In this document: one piece after another, positions 16,493 through 47,685 of the stretch | Position numbering within the stretch: the first letter of the stretch is position 1 | How the letters are laid out: each line of letters starts with the position of its first letter | From: Peribacillus simplex | GTDB lineage: Bacteria; Bacillota; Bacilli; Bacillales; DSM-1321 | Assembly (NCBI RefSeq): GCF_001542915.1 | Contig: NZ_LNNH01000025.1 | Coordinates: forward strand, 27,207 to 91,206 | Direction: 5' to 3' | Length of the DNA stretch: 64,000 bases | Program-made: the position numbers and the translations under genes | Notes under the pieces: model-generated | Seen by the model: the letters and a program-made list of their open reading frames with translations, nothing else | Told to the model about the DNA's origin: nothing | Database searches by the model: none

Positions 16493-16846
16493 ATGAATCG
16501 ATCTACAGAGTTTACATTGTCACTTATCGCTACCATATTCTTAACTATTGGATGGGTTATCGTTGGTATTATCACTTTCTTTGCAGGTCTTGCGCCAGTT
16601 GATGAAATGGATTATACCCTGTTTACCTACTTAGTTATTTACTCGGTTCTAACTATCCCACTACTTGTATTAATTTGGGTTGGCACTTTTAAAATTAAAA
16701 GGAACAGTCGTGGATGGGGAATTTTTATTCTAGTCATGGGTGTGCTTTATACGTTATCCGTTTATTTTATCCCGGGTATAATGCTTCTTATTGCTGGCAT
16801 CATGATGGTTTCTAAAAAAGACGAAAGCCAAAATGTCGCAGTTTAA
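16493..16846 (+). CDS. DUF4064-like membrane protein
   Basis: 117 residues with four predicted membrane segments (about 7-29, 43-66, 76-92 and 93-108) and short loops. The N-terminal RSTEFTLSLIATIFLTIGWV pattern and the final AGIMMVSKKDE fit the DUF4064 family of small Bacillus membrane proteins. Likely expressed from the prophage. Function unknown. Confidence 0.7.
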   Translation: MNRSTEFTLSLIATIFLTIGWVIVGIITFFAGLAPVDEMDYTLFTYLVIYSVLTIPLLVLIWVGTFKIKRNSRGWGIFILVMGVLYTLSVYFIPGIMLLIAGIMMVSKKDESQNVAV

Positions 16847-17984: not shown

Positions 17985-18014
17985 AAAAAGGACCTTCAAA
18001 AGAAGATCCTTTTT
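17985..18014 (-). terminator. Terminator of the csrA-flagellin unit
   Basis: Stem AAAAAGGA(C)CTTC / GAAG(A)TCCTTTTT just after the flagellin stop, ending in a U-run on the minus strand. Confidence 0.8.
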
Positions 18015-18019
18015 AGATA

Positions 18020-18949
18020 TTAACGAAGTAATTGTAATACTCCCTGCGGTGCCTGGTTTGCTTGAGCTAACATTGCTTGAGAAGCTTGAGACAAGATCGA
18101 GTTTTTAGTTTGTTCCATCATAGTCTTAGCCATGTCAGTGTCCCGAATACGAGACTCAGCAGCTGTAAGGTTTTCAGAAGAAGTACCTAAGTTGTTGATT
18201 GTATGTTCTAAACGGTTTTGGTTTGCTCCTAATTTAGAACGTTCTGCTGAAACGTTATCAATCGCTGTTTGAATTTTTGTAATAGCAGCTGATGCACTTG
18301 AGGCAGTAGAAACATCTAGACCAGCCTCAACAGGAGTAGAATCAGTACCGTTACTTACACCCGCAGTGGCTGTAAATCCTGCGTCACCTGCATTGCCTGT
18401 TAATTTAAGGGCATTGGCACGCATATCTTTAATTTCAAGTGTTAAGCTTTGGTTTTGGTTAGCGCCGATTTGGAATTGAAGACCAACTCCTGGAACACCT
18501 GCGCTAGTACCGTCTGGATTATTTGAATCTTTGGCACCGTTCAGTAATTTTTGAGTATTGAATTCAGTCGTATTACCGATACGGTTAATTTCTGATGTCA
18601 AAGAGTTCATTTCTTTTTGGATTTCTCCACGATCAGTTGTTGTGTTTGTATCTGTTGCTGCTTGTGTAGCAAGTTCACGCATACGTTGAAGGATATCAGT
18701 TGTTTCGTTTAATGCACCTTCAGCAGTTTGGATTAGAGAGATTGCATCTTGTGAGTTACGAGAAGCTTGATCTAACCCGCGAATTTGCCCACGCATTTTT
18801 TCAGAGATCGCTAGACCTGCAGCATCATCCCCTGCTTTATTGATACGCATACCTGAAGCAAGTTTCTCCATCGATTTTGATTGAGCATTTGTTGCGCTTG
18901 ATAATTGACGGTGCGTGTTTAATGCTGAAATATTGTGATTGATAATCAT
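18020..18949 (-). CDS. hag: Prophage-borne flagellin
   Basis: Structural subunit of the flagellar filament. 309 residues, complete. The N-terminal D0/D1 helices (about 1-140: MIINHNISALNTHRQLSSAT, GDDAAGLAISEKMRGQIRGL, ALNETTDILQRMRELA) and the C-terminal D1/D0 helices (about 230-309: IDNVSAERSKLGANQNRLEH, ending MLAQANQAPQGVLQLLR) are canonical; the surface-exposed middle (about 145-225) is short, rich in Gly, Thr, Ser and Ala. No stop, frameshift or loss of the export/assembly ends is seen, so it should polymerise. It lies inside the prophage, 57 bases behind a csrA gene with a CsrA-type hairpin and its own ribosome site (GGAGGT). Terminator follows. Transcribed with csrA from a sigma-D promoter. 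Confidence 0.95.
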   Translation of the reverse strand: MIINHNISALNTHRQLSSATNAQSKSMEKLASGMRINKAGDDAAGLAISEKMRGQIRGLDQASRNSQDAISLIQTAEGALNETTDILQRMRELATQAATDTNTTTDRGEIQKEMNSLTSEINRIGNTTEFNTQKLLNGAKDSNNPDGTSAGVPGVGLQFQIGANQNQSLTLEIKDMRANALKLTGNAGDAGFTATAGVSNGTDSTPVEAGLDVSTASSASAAITKIQTAIDNVSAERSKLGANQNRLEHTINNLGTSSENLTAAESRIRDTDMAKTMMEQTKNSILSQASQAMLAQANQAPQGVLQLLR

Positions 18950-18956
18950 TTGTGTT

Positions 18957-18962
18957 ACCTCC
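18957..18962 (-). promoter_or_regulatory. Flagellin ribosome binding site with GGA
   Basis: GGAGGT in the context ACACGGAGGTAAC, 7 bases before the flagellin ATG. In B. subtilis a second CsrA site covers the hag ribosome site; the ACGGAGG here could play the same part. Confidence 0.65.
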
Positions 18963-18977
18963 GTGTTTTTTAATAGG

Positions 18978-18997
18978 TGGCCACATCCTTGTGACCA
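18978..18997 (-). promoter_or_regulatory. CsrA-binding hairpin in the flagellin leader
   Basis: In the mRNA, TGGTCAC pairs with GTGGCCA (7 bp, one G-U) around a loop AAGGAT. The central ACAAGGATGT matches 10 bases of the CsrA consensus RUACARGGAUGU, with GGA exposed in the loop as required. It sits about 30 bases before the flagellin start, the arrangement of the two-site hag leader of B. subtilis. Confidence 0.8.
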
Positions 18998-19006
18998 TGA
19001 TAAGAA

Positions 19007-19180
19007 TTATTCAGGGGTTATTTCTTCACGACGAATGTTATATTTCTTCGGTGCATCTATCTTCATACGAATATCACCTTTTAACTCATGTCTAAAAAGG
19101 GTTATGCATATCTCTTCCTTTGTTTCTTCATTGAAAATATTCAGTTTTTGTCCCATTTTCCTTGTTACAACTAATCCCAT
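19007..19180 (-). CDS. csrA: Short CsrA homologue (prophage)
   Basis: 57-residue RNA-binding translational repressor. It opens MGLVVTRKMGQKLNI (family MLVLSRKxxExIxI) and has the conserved ending KIDAPKKYNIRREEI, which carries the RNA-contacting Arg (Arg51; Arg44 in E. coli) and first-strand Leu/Val. Bacillus CsrA has about 74 residues; this one stops right after the core, without the C-terminal extension that FliW uses in B. subtilis. The ATG at 19,180 has AAGGAGG 8 bases upstream; the frame extends further to 19,225 without a ribosome site. It is 57 bases ahead of flagellin and clearly co-transcribed. Confidence 0.88.
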   Translation of the reverse strand: MGLVVTRKMGQKLNIFNEETKEEICITLFRHELKGDIRMKIDAPKKYNIRREEITPE

Positions 19181-19210
19181 ATGCTCATCCTCCTTGATGT
19201 TATATAAGAA

Positions 19211-19237
19211 ATATCGACCATACAAAATAATTGTTTA
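19211..19237 (-). promoter_or_regulatory. Sigma-D (flagellar) promoter of csrA-flagellin
   Basis: On the minus strand TAAA (19,234-19,237), exactly 15 bases, then GTCGATAT (19,211-19,218). The B. subtilis sigma-D consensus is TAAA-N15-GCCGATAT: one mismatch. The csrA ATG follows about 30 bases further. This links the prophage unit to the host motility sigma factor. Confidence 0.75.
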
Positions 19238-19285
19238 ACCTTTTATTAAATAATTACTGAAAAAAGTATATTTAGAAGAAAAACA

Positions 19286-19318
19286 AAAAACCCCTACTCT
19301 ATTGAGTAAGGGTTTTTA
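19286..19318 (-). terminator. Terminator of the phage late operon
   Basis: Stem with AAAAACCCC-TACTC / GAGTA-AGGGTTTTT, U-run on both strands. It separates the amidase gene (end of the late operon) from the sigma-D unit. Confidence 0.8.
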
Positions 19319-19378: not shown

Positions 19379-20530
19379 TTATGCAGCAAATAATTCAGCA
19401 AAAGAAGCTTTTCCAGCCTTCTTATCTGCAGTAATCTTTTTTGCTTTCTGGAACTTTTCTAATACTGATTCAGTACCTTTTCCAAAGATGGAATCGAGTG
19501 ATCCAGGGTTATAACCTTCGGTGTAAAGCGCCGCCTGGAGAATCCAAGTAAGATTGCCTTTTGCGCCTTTTTCAAGGGTAACAATGGCTGCCTTAGTTTT
19601 AGCTCCCCATTTACCGTCTACAACAAGCTTCTTATTGAACTGCTTATTAAGCTCGGTTTGTAGCGCTTTAATGAGTGCCGTTTTAGTTTTAGAGCCTTTG
19701 ATTCCATCCACTACAAGGCCAGTAGCATAACGGCTATTTAATGTTTTCTGAATGGATCTGATTGTTTCATCTCCACTTACTGATGGTTTGGCATCTTCTT
19801 TATTTTTATCAGGTTGAACAATAACTTCTTTAGCATTTCCAAAATTAATTTTTTGGCCGATTTTCAGCTTTGATGGATCGATACCAGGATTTGCTTTAAT
19901 CAGATCCTCGACTTGAACGCCGTCCGCGCCATCTTTATGTGCAATACTCCATAATGTATCACCTTCCTGGATGGTGTAGACATCAGGTGCAGGAGCAGGT
20001 TTAGATGGGGTTTTTGAACCTTTCCAATCAAATGCTTCCCTGTAATTGTACTCGCAACAAGCTTTCCAGCTATAACCAGGCATCTCATTATGAGCTTTAT
20101 CATATTGCCCAATTCCATCTTTAACAAGTGCAGCGTGCAACTCAGCAATACTCGCAAGAGTAGCTTCATCCATGGTGTCGTATCGATAATCACCGGCAAC
20201 ACAGATGCCTAACGAGAATTGATTACTGTTTCCAACATGGTAAGTTCGACGATCATAATCATTCGCGTATACAATCCTGGCTCTCTTTCCGTTTGGAGTA
20301 CTAATTATATTCTTAGGCTCAATAACAAGCGCATATCCACATCCAGGCCATCCTAGTGTACCCACATGATACGCCGCGAAGCTTGCAGCATCTGAGCCCG
20401 CCAAATTCTTTTTGGTTAAAGAATGGTGCCAAACGCGGTGAGTAATTGCTTTTGTACGTTTTGAATAAGTACCATTTGATTTTAATTTACCTCTCATATC
20501 GACTAATTGTGGTAGGTTTGTAAAGTTCAT
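19379..20530 (-). CDS. Endolysin: N-acetylmuramoyl-L-alanine amidase, LysM, PG-binding
   Basis: Cuts the amide bond between muramic acid and the stem peptide at lysis. 383 residues. Amidase_2 domain at about 15-170 with zinc ligands in THRVWHHSL (His) and HNEMPGYSWKACC; LysM at about 185-230 (VYTIQEGDTLWSIAHK, then PSKLKIGQKINF); C-terminal peptidoglycan-binding_1 repeats at about 255-380 (LVVDGIKGSKTKTALI and LVVDGKWGAKTKAAIV). Last gene of the late operon, just after holin. ATG at 20,530 is preferred since AAGGAG lies 9 bases upstream; an ATG at 20,536 sits only 3 bases from it. Confidence 0.93.
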   Translation of the reverse strand: MNFTNLPQLVDMRGKLKSNGTYSKRTKAITHRVWHHSLTKKNLAGSDAASFAAYHVGTLGWPGCGYALVIEPKNIISTPNGKRARIVYANDYDRRTYHVGNSNQFSLGICVAGDYRYDTMDEATLASIAELHAALVKDGIGQYDKAHNEMPGYSWKACCEYNYREAFDWKGSKTPSKPAPAPDVYTIQEGDTLWSIAHKDGADGVQVEDLIKANPGIDPSKLKIGQKINFGNAKEVIVQPDKNKEDAKPSVSGDETIRSIQKTLNSRYATGLVVDGIKGSKTKTALIKALQTELNKQFNKKLVVDGKWGAKTKAAIVTLEKGAKGNLTWILQAALYTEGYNPGSLDSIFGKGTESVLEKFQKAKKITADKKAGKASFAELFAA

Positions 20531-20583
20531 TTTCATCGTCTCCTTTTAATTTGATTCATAATAAAAAGCCACCCACAGGCAGC

Positions 20584-20850
20584 TTATTTCGGTTCGTTAT
20601 AGTTCATCGCTCTTGAGCTATCTTTAGCACCCTTTGTAGTTGGATCATTAATTGCATTCCACAAGCTAATCACCATGATCACAACCACATATGGATTAGA
20701 AAGTGAATCAACCAATAAGTTATAAACAGAACCCCACGTAGTTAAATCCTGTGCCGTTAATCCAAAATATCCGAGAATAGGTACAAAAACAGCTAAAAAT
20801 AATTGTGTTATAAACATAGGGTTTTTAAAACGTACTTTCCAGTTGATCAT
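20584..20850 (-). CDS. phi-LC3-type holin
   Basis: 88 residues starting MINWKVRFKNPMFITQLFLA. Two hydrophobic segments (about 12-34 and 50-70) with AQDLTTWG between, and a hydrophilic end. The MINWKVRxKN opening is typical of the phi-LC3/Phage_holin_1 family. It forms membrane lesions that let the amidase reach the wall. It sits between XhlA-like and amidase genes, the expected lysis order. Confidence 0.88.
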   Translation of the reverse strand: MINWKVRFKNPMFITQLFLAVFVPILGYFGLTAQDLTTWGSVYNLLVDSLSNPYVVVIMVISLWNAINDPTTKGAKDSSRAMNYNEPK

Positions 20851-20866
20851 TTTAAAAAACATCTCC

Positions 20867-22102: not shown

Positions 22103-23311
22103 TTATTTTCTTATTTTTGCTGACATTACCGCTATTGCGTAAGCAATCATCATGTATACCATAAAAACAATGAAGAATTTTTTCCTTGATAAATCATCAC
22201 CTGCGGCTCCTACAACGTAATCGATACCGTAATGAAGGGCAGCATCATAACTAACTAATTCTAAAACACAGGTGTAGGATAAAATACATAAAAATGAAAT
22301 TACAAAAAATCCCCTTGCTTTTCTAAATGTTAGAAAAACAATTCCACAAGCAATCATTCCAATTAACCCAACAACTGACTCTGTTGTTCTATAAAAAAGT
22401 TCAGACCAATTCTCTAAACGGAATGGGTTAGGTGAAAAAAAGGAAATCCCCAAGGTGTAAAACGTGTTGATAGATCCAGTTATACCACTTTTAAAAAATA
22501 CGATTACCATCGATATTATAGTTCCGAATACTGCTGTTTTATACATTTTCTTAAATATTAAAAAATACAGTATTACCGGAACAAATGTATATTGGCGTAT
22601 CGTAAAAGCAAAAGCGCTGACTAGTATCAAAAGAAAGTACCTTTTATTTAGTAATAGCCAGAGACTAAGAACTAGAAAAAACATTATTGTAGTTTCTTTT
22701 CGCACAATTGACGACCAATATATCAGTTGAGGGCTAACTAAACATAAGCTGAGAAATAAACCATTGAACAGCTTTTTGTTACCCATTTCATAAGGAAAAT
22801 GATTCTTAACTATATCGTAAATTAAATAGATAATTAAGATAGTAAGCACGGTGTTGTATACATTCATTGCAATCGGTGTATAATCCCCAATAACCTCGAA
22901 AAATGTTATATATAAAAAACCAAATGTGTTAAATAAATTTGCAAAAATAAAGTTATGAGAGATGTCATAAAAGAAATTTTCGAAAAAAAGTGAATAATCA
23001 TATCCAAACATGCCGTAATAATTAATATAAGCGACTGAATCGGGATTCCTTACTGGTTCTACTGTTAAAAGGTAATTTATTTTAACAGTTGCAAAAATAA
23101 TGTATCCCATAGTAAGTAAAGCTTTATTCTCAATTTTAAAACAAAGTACTATTGGAAATAGAAATAACAAGAACATAACAAACCCTATTTGTGGACTCAA
23201 GTTAATTATTACTCTAGTCCACAAAGTTATAGTTAGAATAGTGATTGCTATTAATACCCATTCCCTTTTTGTATAATTCGAACTTGGATTCAGTGTTGTT
23301 TTTGTTTGCAT
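22103..23311 (-). CDS. EpsG/Wzy-like polytopic membrane protein
   Basis: 402 residues with about ten to twelve membrane segments and a large outer loop, and short charged ends. The order of segments with an EPVRNPDSVAYINYYG loop after the third or fourth helix (EpsG proteins typically have a DxxxY/YxxxY pattern there) and a later RKETTIMFFLVLSLWLLL recall EpsG/Wzy polysaccharide polymerases. If right, it would alter a surface polymer of the lysogen. It is AT-rich and placed between the tail-fibre gene and the lysis genes, with its own terminator, so it looks like an added cargo gene. Assignment is by pattern only. Confidence 0.65.
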   Translation of the reverse strand: MQTKTTLNPSSNYTKREWVLIAITILTITLWTRVIINLSPQIGFVMFLLFLFPIVLCFKIENKALLTMGYIIFATVKINYLLTVEPVRNPDSVAYINYYGMFGYDYSLFFENFFYDISHNFIFANLFNTFGFLYITFFEVIGDYTPIAMNVYNTVLTILIIYLIYDIVKNHFPYEMGNKKLFNGLFLSLCLVSPQLIYWSSIVRKETTIMFFLVLSLWLLLNKRYFLLILVSAFAFTIRQYTFVPVILYFLIFKKMYKTAVFGTIISMVIVFFKSGITGSINTFYTLGISFFSPNPFRLENWSELFYRTTESVVGLIGMIACGIVFLTFRKARGFFVISFLCILSYTCVLELVSYDAALHYGIDYVVGAAGDDLSRKKFFIVFMVYMMIAYAIAVMSAKIRK

Positions 23312-40924: not shown

Positions 40925-42607
40925 TTATCCAAATAGATCACTAACAGACACAAATTCAATATCTCCATTTCCCTGAGGTGTCGTTAATATCTCCATTGTT
41001 TTAATATGAGAGTTCAACATGGCAGCAAAGCCATCGATTTTACGATAACGATTTTGTTTTTGTGGAAGCCAACTGCCGTTTTCATTTTTCTTTAACTTCA
41101 CGTTGTTGATATACCACCTTAACAACCTGTTCTTATTAAAAATAACTTTCCCATCCATGAACATCGTTTCTAAATCACGAAGACCAGGTGTTAAAGTTAA
41201 TGGTCCCTGCCTTACAATTTCGGTAACGAATCCATAACTTTCAAGATCTTTTACCAGCCTGTAAGCTTTGGCTGGATCATAAGCAATCTTTTCAATCGTA
41301 TAAATTTTCGACTTCGCAACAAACCAATCGTAGACCTGTTCCAATTTGATATAATCCTCATCCACGATTGTTAAAAGTCCGTCTTTAGCGAACTCTAGAT
41401 ATGGTATTTTTTCATTATCTGCCAGCACCTTTTTTCTTGGTATCCAAGAGTGAGACAAAACAAATACCTCTCCGGTATCAAGAGGGAATTCAAGACAAGC
41501 GCTTGTGAAATCCTCGGATTCGGAAAGGTCAAAAGAACCTATGCAATTACGATTTTTCAATGTTTCAATATTAATAACCTTGTCATTGCGTTTGATTACG
41601 GAATAGTCCAGGAATGATTGCTCATCTGATTTAACAAAAAGATTCAAACGTTTCGTTATAAAGTCACTTCGTTCTGCCGGGATGTGCTTTCGGCTTTCCC
41701 ATTCTTCAATAAGTGTTTCCAATTTAAGAGTTGTCCCCAAGTTAGGATTTGCCTTAATCCAGTTTTCCGGATTATCAAGGTCATCCTTTTCATCCAATTC
41801 CGCTAAAAAATAAAAACAACGTTCATCATCAATCACGCCATCTAAAACGTCCGCAGCTTTATCATAATAATCCACAAGTGGACCGTCTAATTGATACCCT
41901 GCAGTCGTTATATACAAAAGGAGTGGTTGTTTCCGCGCCCCTGTACTGTTCTTGATTACATTGATTAGCTTGTAATTTTTATACTCATGGATTTCATCAA
42001 ATACACCAAAGCTACAGTTTTTACCGTCCATCTTTTTACTGTCAGTTGCCAAAGGAATAATCTTGGACATGGTCCGACCAAACCGTATCTCTTTATTAGT
42101 AGGATCAAAATGACGATTTAAGATTGGTGAAGATTTAACCATGGCCACACACTCATCGAACACCTCTTTCGCTTGTTCTTTTGAGTTGGCCAACTGATAA
42201 ACCCGCGCTCCATTTTCTCCATCCTTTGATGAACTATAGAGCGATAAACCAGATACAAGTGTTGATTTACCATTTTTCCTTCCAACAAAAATAAGGCCCT
42301 CCTTGAAGCGCCTTACACCCGAATCTTTATGAACCCACCCATACAACGACCCTACAATAAAATGCTGCCAGGGTTGCAATTCTAATCGATCGTAATCGCC
42401 CTGGGATGGTTTACAGAATCTTTGAATGTACTCAACTGGACGATGGCCCTTTTCTTCATCGAAAACATAAGGGAACTTCTTCGTCCCTTGTCTTTCCAAG
42501 TCCTTCAAGTGCCTTTGACAAGCTTGAAAAACCTTTTTGGAAGTTGTGATGATATGAGAAGTTACCCCTTTGGCATATTCTGTTGTTAATAATTTAGAAT
42601 CGCTCAA
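40925..42607 (-). CDS. terL: Terminase large subunit
   Basis: About 560 residues. N-terminal ATPase with Walker A-like VGRKNGKST (about 110-118) and Walker B FGVFDEIHEY; C-terminal nuclease with acidic residues in CIGSFDLSESEDFTS (about 360-375) and AYDPAKAYRLV. It pumps and cuts DNA at the portal. Length and motifs fit the Terminase_1/HK97 type. Start uncertain: TTG at 42,607 follows GGGTGAT at good distance, ATG at 42,613 abuts it, and the frame is open to 42,646. It overlaps TerS slightly. Confidence 0.92.
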   Translation of the reverse strand: MSDSKLLTTEYAKGVTSHIITTSKKVFQACQRHLKDLERQGTKKFPYVFDEEKGHRPVEYIQRFCKPSQGDYDRLELQPWQHFIVGSLYGWVHKDSGVRRFKEGLIFVGRKNGKSTLVSGLSLYSSSKDGENGARVYQLANSKEQAKEVFDECVAMVKSSPILNRHFDPTNKEIRFGRTMSKIIPLATDSKKMDGKNCSFGVFDEIHEYKNYKLINVIKNSTGARKQPLLLYITTAGYQLDGPLVDYYDKAADVLDGVIDDERCFYFLAELDEKDDLDNPENWIKANPNLGTTLKLETLIEEWESRKHIPAERSDFITKRLNLFVKSDEQSFLDYSVIKRNDKVINIETLKNRNCIGSFDLSESEDFTSACLEFPLDTGEVFVLSHSWIPRKKVLADNEKIPYLEFAKDGLLTIVDEDYIKLEQVYDWFVAKSKIYTIEKIAYDPAKAYRLVKDLESYGFVTEIVRQGPLTLTPGLRDLETMFMDGKVIFNKNRLLRWYINNVKLKKNENGSWLPQKQNRYRKIDGFAAMLNSHIKTMEILTTPQGNGDIEFVSVSDLFG

Positions 42608-42977
42608 AATCATCACCCTTGCTGTCTTCCGCTTCTCCTCCATCAATTGGTATCACATCTGAAACTTTTCTATCTGAGGCAGGGGTGAGCTTTAACTCTG
42701 CCTGAAGTTTACGCTGCTGCTCAATAATTTTTAAGATTTTATCCACCGATTTATTATCTCGGTACATTTCTTGACTTCCATTTTTGAAGAGCTCAACTGT
42801 CCCCCGCTTTTTCACATCAGCAATCGAATCTTGTTTCATTTGTTCGAGCAGGACCATGTTATCAACCAAGATTATTGTTCTTTTACTCAAATTGTTATCA
42901 ATCCGCAATTCATCAATAAGCGTTTTAAATAGGTCTTTTGCTAATTGTCGTGTAATTCCTGACTTAGGTTTGTACAT
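42594..42977 (-). CDS. terS: Terminase small subunit (P27 family)
   Basis: 127 residues. An N-terminal DNA-binding helix pair (AKDLFKTLIDELRIDN) and a middle helical hairpin with LVDNMVLLEQMKQDSIADVK and SVDKILKIIEQQRKLQAELK, typical of P27-family TerS, which recognises the packaging site. Strong Gly-rich ribosome site (GAGGGGGGGG). Packaging site (cos or pac) is probably close, in the 74-base gap upstream, but is not recognisable by eye. Confidence 0.85.
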   Translation of the reverse strand: MYKPKSGITRQLAKDLFKTLIDELRIDNNLSKRTIILVDNMVLLEQMKQDSIADVKKRGTVELFKNGSQEMYRDNKSVDKILKIIEQQRKLQAELKLTPASDRKVSDVIPIDGGEAEDSKGDDFERF

Positions 42978-45994: not shown

Positions 45995-46206
45995 ACAAAA
46001 ACGACGACACCATCTGAGTGCCGCCCTGTTTTCTTTATTCTCGATAATATAAATTTAACACGTATTTCTCCTAACAACACACATTGTACCCTCAAATTAT
46101 CAATAGTTTTTTCTAATGTTTTCCCTAATTCCCTCGTACTTTATTTGCTAATATTTTTACTAGATTTTATAATTCAATTACATATATTGTGAGAGGAAGG
46201 TTACCC

Positions 46207-47322
46207 ATGCCAATCTATGAGTATGAGAAGAATGGGAAAACTGCCTACTATTATGCCTTTGAAGTGAAGGACACAACAGGCAAACGTAAAACGATTAAGA
46301 AGCGCGGTTTCACTGGAAAGAAAGAAGCAAGAGATGCAGAAGCAGCTGCCCGGACAGAATGGTTAAAAGGCAGTTATATAGATCCCTCTAAGATTACCTT
46401 CGGTGAATACATTCAAGAGTGGTTAGATAATAAACAAGATATCTCCCCTGAAACAAGACATACAAACAACGGCCACCTATCCAATCATATTATCCCTGAG
46501 CTTGGTCACATCCCTTTACAAAAGGTCAGCGTGACTCACATTGAGCGCCTTATCAAGGCTTTACAGGATAAAGAACTGGCTGATGGTACTGTCCGTAAAA
46601 TATACAATTTGATTCATACTTGCTTTAAAACAGCAGTAAAAAAGGAATTGATCATTAAGAACCCGTTTGATCTTTTAGATAAAGGTTCTAAACCTCGGAC
46701 CAGTAAACCTAAAATTGATTACTGGACAACTGAAGAGGTAAAGCAATTTCTCGACAAGATAGACGGCCGTTACCGTATATTGTTTATCTTGGCGATTTAT
46801 ACAGGCATGCGCCGCGGCGAGCTTTTGGGCTTACGTTGGAAGGATATCAACTTTGAAACTTCCCAAATACGAATCAGTCAGTCATTAAAGGCTCGACAAG
46901 GCCTAATTAAAGGCGTTAAGACAGATTCAGGCTACAGGTCTATTACTGTCGCACCGACCGTTATAAACGAGCTTAAGAAGCACAGGACGATGGTTCTTAA
47001 AGAGAAGTTAGCCTGTGAGGATTATGAAGATTATGACTTAGTGGTTTGCCAAGTGGATGGCCGCCCGCGTGCTTTAGGAACTTTCGACAGGGATTGGAAA
47101 AGGGTGTTGGAACGAACGGAAATGAGAAAGATCCGTTTTCATGATTTGCGGCATACATGCGCATCCTTGCTATTCAGTGCAAATGTTCACCCTAAGATCG
47201 TCCAGGAACAATTAGGGCATTCCTCTATCAAAATTACCTTAGATACCTATTCTCATATGATGCCAAACATGCAGGCTGATGCAGCAAAGGTTCTTGAAAA
47301 AATGCTGAACAATTACTCTTAA
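46207..47322 (+). CDS. int: Phage integrase (tyrosine recombinase)
   Basis: 371 residues. An arm-binding N-terminal AP2-like domain (IYEYEKNGKTAYYYAFEV, about 1-60), a SAM-like core-binding domain (FGEYIQEWLDNKQDISPETR, about 60-155) and a catalytic domain (about 165-365) with Arg in TGMRRGELLGL, HDLRHTCAS (His-x-x-Arg), GHSSIKITLDTYSHM (His, and the Tyr nucleophile). It inserts and excises the prophage with the arm sites found at both ends. The ATG at 46,207 follows GAGGAAGG by 7 bases; a GTG at 46,189 is inside that site. Terminator and arm sites follow. Confidence 0.95.
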   Translation: MPIYEYEKNGKTAYYYAFEVKDTTGKRKTIKKRGFTGKKEARDAEAAARTEWLKGSYIDPSKITFGEYIQEWLDNKQDISPETRHTNNGHLSNHIIPELGHIPLQKVSVTHIERLIKALQDKELADGTVRKIYNLIHTCFKTAVKKELIIKNPFDLLDKGSKPRTSKPKIDYWTTEEVKQFLDKIDGRYRILFILAIYTGMRRGELLGLRWKDINFETSQIRISQSLKARQGLIKGVKTDSGYRSITVAPTVINELKKHRTMVLKEKLACEDYEDYDLVVCQVDGRPRALGTFDRDWKRVLERTEMRKIRFHDLRHTCASLLFSANVHPKIVQEQLGHSSIKITLDTYSHMMPNMQADAAKVLEKMLNNYS

Positions 47323-47441: not shown

Positions 47442-47685
47442 AATTTTATATGATCTCTTACGACCCCGAAGGACTAATAATATGAATCTTTCAACAGTTT
47501 ATCACCTTAAAGTACGGATGTAAAATATCTGATTGGAAATGGTTCATTTGTTACAGAAATGGCCTCCCTTGTCAATTGAACCGTTAAGGCTTTTCAAAAA
47601 ACGTTCGATGTGCTCCAAAAAGGTTATTCAAGCAAAAATGGTGGAATAAGATATAGAAGCCACACTACATTCAAGGAGGAATCCC

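Follow-up and report, generated by a model that had tools for sequence, protein, structure and literature searches.

Why should a temperate phage carry a flagellin gene together with a gene for CsrA, the regulator that normally limits filament production? The question is raised by a window of 64,000 nucleotides from Peribacillus simplex, in which a sequence-only reading had noticed a complete flagellin gene and a csrA gene inside a prophage, had taken them for one transcription unit and had proposed that they bring about lysogenic conversion of the flagellar filament. We consider it fairly probable, on the comparisons set out here, that the prophage does convert the filament of its lysogen, supplying both a new flagellin and a translational regulator that would be insensitive to FliW. 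The features concerned, with G150 denoting a one-contig genome of the same species, are these:

19286..19317, minus strand: intrinsic-terminator-like hairpin upstream of the operon, at the end of the lysis unit (terminator scan)
19212..19237, minus strand: promoter of the sigma-D (flagellar sigma) type, TAAA-N15-GTCGATA, before csrA (pattern match)
19007..19180, minus strand: csrA-like gene, 57 aa, with the CsrA-family core and without the FliW-binding tail (Pfam and alignment)
18978..18997, minus strand: hairpin with GGA in the loop in the hag leader, resembling a CsrA site, TGGTCACAAGGATGTGGCCA (leader folding)
18958..18962, minus strand: Shine-Dalgarno GGAGG of the prophage hag, in the context ACACGGAGGTAA (sequence)
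18020..18949, minus strand: flagellin (hag-like), 309 aa, with conserved D0/D1 ends and a short variable middle (Pfam and alignment)
17985..18014, minus strand: intrinsic-terminator-like hairpin downstream of the flagellin (terminator scan)
19379..20536, minus strand: amidase endolysin (Amidase_2, LysM, PG_binding_1; Pfam)
20584..20862, minus strand: phage holin (Pfam)
40925..42646, minus strand: terminase large subunit (PHROGs)
46189..47322, plus strand: integrase (PHROGs)
47461..47474, no strand: right copy of the 14-bp attachment core (flank comparison with G150)

The element around the pair is an intact-looking prophage of ~47.6 kb that lies nearly whole within the window, at 1-47474. Its phage genes include those for the amidase and holin (Pfam) and, from a PHROGs scan of ten prophage proteins that left one without a match, those for terminase, portal, major head, major tail, tape measure, replication initiation and integrase proteins. 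Phages of Paenibacillus larvae and Virgibacillus match the terminase-portal region at 67-68% identity, with 78% of the query covered. The left copy of the 14-bp core ends at C25:27110, 97 bases to the left of window base 1, and the two flanks of the prophage (up to C25:27110 and from window position 47461) match adjoining stretches of G150 with a 14-base overlap, the site in G150 being uninterrupted. The one csrA match in G150 is chromosomal. The att repeats enclose an integrase and genes for packaging, head, tail and lysis, and the site is empty in a relative, so that the element qualifies as a temperate tailed phage. A sister prophage in Bacillus sp. ISL-34 (G016, L082), with 79-91% DNA identity over the matching blocks, has csrA and hag at the same place. 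The IMG/VR record L007 is the same prophage, identical over the 12.9 kb compared; it perhaps derives from the same assembly and is therefore not counted. Megablast of window positions 1-25000 against phage records gave no match, and the window CsrA had none in those records at 1e-5.

Two further details of the element may be recorded. Window bases 1-86 are repeated exactly ~96 bases leftward (L006:7112-7197), at the left end of the prophage. A 402-aa protein encoded at 22103-23311, between a BppU-type tail protein and the lysis genes, has no Pfam match and, judged by eye, many membrane spans.

Is the pair confined to this prophage and its sister? Flagellins were searched for in phage records (12 with a match), in plasmids (186) and in IMG/VR, and a leader pattern independent of csrA was sought both in IMG/VR and across 84,980 species genomes. 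The pair recurs: csrA-hag without fliW is found in 13 elements, namely the window prophage, the sister prophage (L016) and 11 phage, viral or plasmid records (L008-L013, L046, L047, L105, L116 and L120). Among the 11 distinct flagellin-bearing IMG/VR contigs found, csrA lies no more than 100 nt upstream in nine; in L121 it lies 224 nt upstream with a promoter between the genes, and L118, a contig of 16 kb, has a flagellin with no csrA match in the examined stretch. Three of the 12 phage records were examined: L110 and L111 have no csrA near the flagellin, and the third is a B. pumilus phage. All five plasmids with a B. licheniformis-type CsrA are also in the flagellin list.

Terminase signals are present in nine of the 13 elements (the window, L008, L009, L010, L011, L012, L013, L105 and L120), the first model falling below the cut-off in L011 and the second matching clearly. 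The phage status of L016 comes from synteny and that of L046, L047 and L116 solely from the IMG/VR label, with no terminase match to two models for L046 and L047 or to one for L116. Of 14 well-known genomes run as a control, 6 and 11 also match the terminase models, so that a match in a long contig is supportive and no proof. Seven other modules lie in genome contigs (L054, L067, L072, L086, L089, L096 and L097), and five of these seven genomes have a terminase match somewhere, two of them weak. Together these make a set of 20 modules with no fliW in the examined stretch, counted after removal of two duplicates of the module from the B. pumilus phage; csrA and hag are separated by -11 to 81 nt. 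Elements of ~200 kb from B. licheniformis and B. halotolerans are labelled as plasmids but carry a terminase; annotated virion and baseplate proteins occur in the initial 50 kb of the one from B. licheniformis. A phage-borne module would also fit the presence of hag on ~200 kb B. licheniformis elements that are typed as non-mobilizable plasmids and are phage-plasmid-like. In L010 and L012, both ~200 kb phage-plasmids, an LXG polymorphic toxin, accompanied by an immunity gene of the YezG type, and a dnaN clamp gene are annotated within ~5 kb of csrA-hag.

How are the two genes expressed? The flagellin has E values of 5e-48 for Flagellin_N and 1e-27 for Flagellin_C in the Pfam scan, and the CsrA-family protein scores 35.6 bits for PF02599 against a cut-off of 27, its ATG start being preceded by an AAGGAGG ribosome site. 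These scores, the phage gene context and the empty site bear out the view that a complete flagellin and a csrA gene lie inside a phage. The terminator-like sites that bound the pair are among four that a scan of 4 kb gave, where shuffled sequence predicts 2.3. The promoter (19237-19212 in the direction of transcription) stands 31 nt before the csrA start and is the sole match in the window to what we take to be the sigma-D consensus. Since chance alone predicts 0.5 matches per window, the match by itself is weak, and its weight comes from position and conservation. It is kept at the same place in the ISL-34 sister prophage. Upstream of csrA, a strict match is found in 14 of the 20 modules and a loose one in 15, where mononucleotide shuffles predict 0.03 and 0.23; six modules thus lack a strict match and five lack even a loose one. 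Between csrA and hag, none of the 13 modules with a gap above 30 nt has a match, whereas at fliW-linked chromosomal loci a loose match lies there in 25/25. In the window's family, 17 of 20 chromosomal loci show a match of the sigma-D type no more than 160 nt ahead of hag.

The prophage csrA and hag are thus predicted to be one motility-type operon (promoter, csrA, hag, terminator), unlike the chromosomal order fliW-csrA-PsigD-hag, and the single transcription unit proposed earlier is supported by the sigma-D-type promoter and by terminator-like sites at both ends. A promoter of this type would couple expression to the host motility regulon, in the lysogen and not late in the lytic cycle.

Is the phage CsrA simply a copy of the chromosomal regulator? 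The window protein keeps the RNA-binding arginine (R44 equivalent) and the strand-1 arginine (R6 equivalent); among the CsrAs aligned, the former is kept in 14/14 and the latter in 13/14. The protein ends six residues past the R44 equivalent, at the position just before 51, and the C-terminal extension with I/V51 and N55 that marks the FliW-regulated Bacillus type is absent. N55 is found in none of the 18 mobile CsrAs with a readable tail. Both I/V51 and N55 are kept in all 25 fliW-linked chromosomal CsrAs of the pattern set (L057, with csrA 712 nt from hag, fell outside the 700-nt limit) and in all 20 chromosomal CsrAs of the window's family, where 22 loci were examined and 20 yielded a csrA-hag pair. 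In C. jejuni, loss of the 20 C-terminal residues of CsrA or a change of V51 or N55 is reported to impair FliW binding, as is N55D in B. subtilis CsrA (PMC7829508). The phage CsrA has therefore presumably lost FliW binding. No FliW match was found in the 3.9 kb around the prophage pair (L001), while fliW is present at the chromosomal locus on contig C12.

The mobile CsrAs differ at their other end as well: 13 of the 16 with a readable AP motif have at least three extra residues before it, beyond the usual extra N-terminal one, against 0 of 46 chromosomal rows. In the B. pumilus phage the R6 equivalent of CsrA is gone, and the protein scores under the Pfam cut-off. In L072 and L089, from Virgibacillus alimentarius and Oceanobacillus rekensis, the csrA frame has only 35 aa and no readable tail, and these are perhaps decaying modules. 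CsrAs without the tail also occur beyond phages. Seven further loci have no fliW in the examined stretch and csrA more than 100 nt from hag; N55 is absent in six of them, mostly before giant flagellins, and kept in L077. The CsrA of L121 lacks N55 too. At L114 (G010), L068, L099 and L102, two short csrA genes lie upstream of a giant flagellin (frames of 836-921 aa), with no fliW in the examined stretch, an arrangement seen in Paenibacillus and in a single genome from the genus to which the window belongs.

Have the mobile CsrAs a common history? In a tree of 60 columns with long branches, which took in 17 of the 20 (L072, L089 and L097 were left out), the mobile CsrAs lie on one side of a branch (88/48) that appears in 90% of bootstrap trees. 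We lean, with weak support, towards a single origin. The flagellins of the mobile modules are spread over the flagellin tree, and it is plausible that a lasting phage CsrA has been combined with exchangeable flagellins. The sequence-only reading had treated csrA as the chromosomal partner travelling along with hag. The data point elsewhere, to a distinct tail-less type of CsrA in which the FliW-binding residues are missing and which is joined to flagellins of several origins.

On which mRNA might such a CsrA act? The prophage hag leader, just downstream of csrA, has a strong GGA hairpin of 8 pairs as well as the GGAGG ribosome site, and chromosomal hag leaders of the family have a GGA-loop hairpin of 4-6 pairs in 20/20. 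Host leaders likewise combine a GGA hairpin with GGAGG. At the preset cut-off (score 6), the hairpin is scored in 8/20 mobile and 10/20 family chromosomal leaders (p 0.75); at a looser cut-off of 5.5, chosen afterwards, the counts are 9/20 and 20/20 (p 0.0001), at 5 they are 13 and 20, and at 7 they are 8 and 2. In the pattern set at cut-off 6, the hairpin is found in 7/20 mobile leaders, two copies of one module included, and in 24/25 chromosomal ones. The family chromosomal leaders all keep the hairpin and the mobile ones vary, a contrast that depends on the cut-off. Escape of the leader from CsrA is not supported for the window prophage, its own leader keeping a strong hairpin. Chromosomal hag genes of Planococcaceae share the ACACGGAGG ribosome site with the mobile ones, and the site is hence no phage-specific mark of escape.

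Under lysogenic conversion, a lysogen that switches on its motility regulon would have the prophage operon transcribed by sigma-D, and the phage flagellin would be chaperoned, exported and built into the host flagella, changing the filament surface; a new serotype, escape from phages or altered motility are possible benefits. Less surely, the phage CsrA would act on hag mRNA and, being blind to FliW, would stay active throughout, capping flagellin translation on phage terms; host Hag would probably be pushed down relative to phage Hag. We make no claim that the host hag is the preferred target, because hairpins of the CsrA type stand in both leaders and CsrAs without the tail are also found at loci that are not known to belong to phages. 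Given the strong hairpin in its own leader, the prophage may see its CsrA repress the phage flagellin as well. If this were all that CsrA did, it would be a FliW-independent brake on the phage flagellin only, holding translation low and constant, leaving host Hag unaffected and giving filaments that are mixed and not switched. The 8-pair hairpin and the closeness of csrA to hag in all modules agree with such a self-limiting cargo, and the grouping of mobile CsrAs apart from chromosomal ones means that their RNA preference may differ. However, a CsrA that binds the prophage leader would be expected to bind the family's chromosomal leaders, all of which have a GGA-loop hairpin. We regard a purely self-limiting role as the strongest of the alternatives, if a somewhat unlikely one.

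What would the phage flagellin do in the filament? A fliW, csrA, hag and fliD region of the host's own lies on contig C12, where hag encodes 395 aa and csrA stands upstream of a separate sigma-D-type promoter. On the opposite strand, the space that separates host hag from the flagellar genes that follow contains a gene for a LAGLIDADG_2 DNA endonuclease (L005:5891-6739). Comparison with the chromosomal hag, which the sequence-only reading had advised, shows 98% identity over the first 138 residues and 92% over the last 88, and some 86 residues of the middle of host Hag are missing from the prophage protein; the earlier description of a full-length flagellin with canonical D0/D1 ends and a short middle holds, both Flagellin domains being found. 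The core has a dN/dS of 0.024 at a dS of 0.86 in the first of these stretches and of 0.084 at a dS of 0.83 in the last, and so is under strong purifying selection; assembly into filaments is predicted. With dS at ~0.83-0.86, recent capture from this very host is rejected. In a core tree, which left out 24 loci with a cut or unread flagellin end and took only some of the fliW-linked rows, the prophage flagellin groups with the chromosomal flagellins of the host and of ISL-34 (100/96), nearer than with that of the sister prophage. Only one position differs from host Hag in residues 1-72, and the same residues of B. subtilis Hag are reported to be enough for FliW binding (PMC6070490). Phage Hag should accordingly be able to bind FliW too, which might free the host's own CsrA, although we are less sure of this step.

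Phage Hag departs from host Hag chiefly in its middle region, and flagellotropic Bacillus phages such as PBS1 exist. Both points would suit superinfection exclusion, in which the swapped filament mainly blocks flagellum-adsorbing phages, kin included. In the Enterobacter FRphi system, however, the receptor is FhuA, no flagellotropic phage was found and exclusion was judged unlikely (PMC13418256). We think exclusion an unlikely main function, slightly more so than a self-limiting brake.

Could the pair instead be passive cargo or a passenger in decay, picked up from a host by chance and of no consequence to the lysogen? The broken-looking csrA frames of two modules might suggest so, as might the rarity of the gene, a csrA match of the mobile type above 80 bits being found in only 2 of 43 genomes of the window's family. 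Against this stand the low dN/dS of the flagellin core relative to host Hag (0.02-0.08), a csrA dN/dS of 0.22 between the sister prophages, and the recurrence of this gene order, in most cases with this promoter type, in phages quite unlike one another; passive cargo is improbable. Lastly, an assembly artefact fusing a phage contig with a chromosomal flagellar region can be dismissed, since although the genome is a draft of 58 contigs, one contig holds the prophage and its two flanks, which are colinear with the one-contig genome G150 around the 14-bp core, the chromosomal fla region is intact and elsewhere, and a sister prophage in another genome carries the pair. Misassembly and flanking fla/che genes in relatives, either of which the sequence-only reading would have counted against itself, were seen neither at the empty site nor in the sister prophage, where this was tested.

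Lysogenic conversion of the filament is supported by the sigma-D-type promoter, the purifying selection and the recurrence. The recurring csrA-flagellin pairing in bacillus phages suggests that phages remodel the swimming filament of their host bacteria. A wider reading is offered tentatively, with a little less than even confidence: Bacillota phages and phage-plasmids may share a dedicated FliW-free type of CsrA, coupled to interchangeable flagellins, as a translational switch that silences or outcompetes host Hag, an independent protein-based counterpart of the RNA-guided FRphi. The predicted FliW-blind CsrA is sharply testable in laboratory Bacillus subtilis.

How does this compare with known systems? 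No report of flagellin or csrA-flagellin cargo in Bacillus phages was found among the titles and abstracts that literature searches listed, a scope that excludes most subscription journals and bioRxiv preprints. The Hag-FliW-CsrA homeostasis of B. subtilis involves the same flagellin and CsrA families and a hag leader that also has a GGA hairpin and a ribosome site, but the phage module is without fliW, has csrA under hag's promoter and encodes a CsrA without the FliW-binding tail. The csrA genes of Gram-negative phages (Vibrio, Acinetobacter) are also phage-borne members of the family, with less than 60% identity to the mobile CsrA query. Walker et al. (2026, PMC13418256) describe chromosomal csrA-tldR loci as well; in the gut loci of the Oscillibacter type, csrA-tldR-fliC, csrA is likewise linked to an alternative flagellin and CsrA bound the fliC leader, but those loci are described as chromosome-encoded, with TldR and often hin, whereas the pair studied here is phage-borne. 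Neither a TnpB-type (TldR-like) nor a resolvase-type domain was found by Pfam in the ten neighbourhood proteins scanned, a set that does not include ORFs of 117 and 82 aa at 16493 and 16850.

A close parallel is FRphi itself (fliCP with tldR), a temperate phage of Enterobacter that also carries its own flagellin beside a regulator gene. The TldR-associated flagellins of Enterobacter prophages were described in 2026 as the first known case of prophage-borne flagellin (Walker et al. 2026, PMC13418256), and the word Bacillus does not occur, at a word start, in the searched text of that paper. As in FRphi, the prophage flagellin is distinct from that of the host. Remodelling of the lysogen's filament has been demonstrated for FRphi and would be expected here. 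The regulator of FRphi is an RNA-guided transcription repressor derived from TnpB, whereas that of the window is a translational regulator of the CsrA type; the window system also differs in belonging to Bacillota and in forming one operon behind a sigma-D-type promoter. New here are the sigma-D-type promoter before csrA, the missing FliW-binding tail and the recurrence in other elements, none of which the sequence-only reading had mentioned, as well as the weak grouping of the mobile CsrAs and the strong purifying selection on the flagellin core. With flagellin cargo also in Bacillota phages, and there under another regulator, filament remodelling would be a strategy that phages use repeatedly. 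By analogy, our best reading is that the window system would work like the FRphi/TldR-FliCP system of Enterobacter, with an unrelated regulator.
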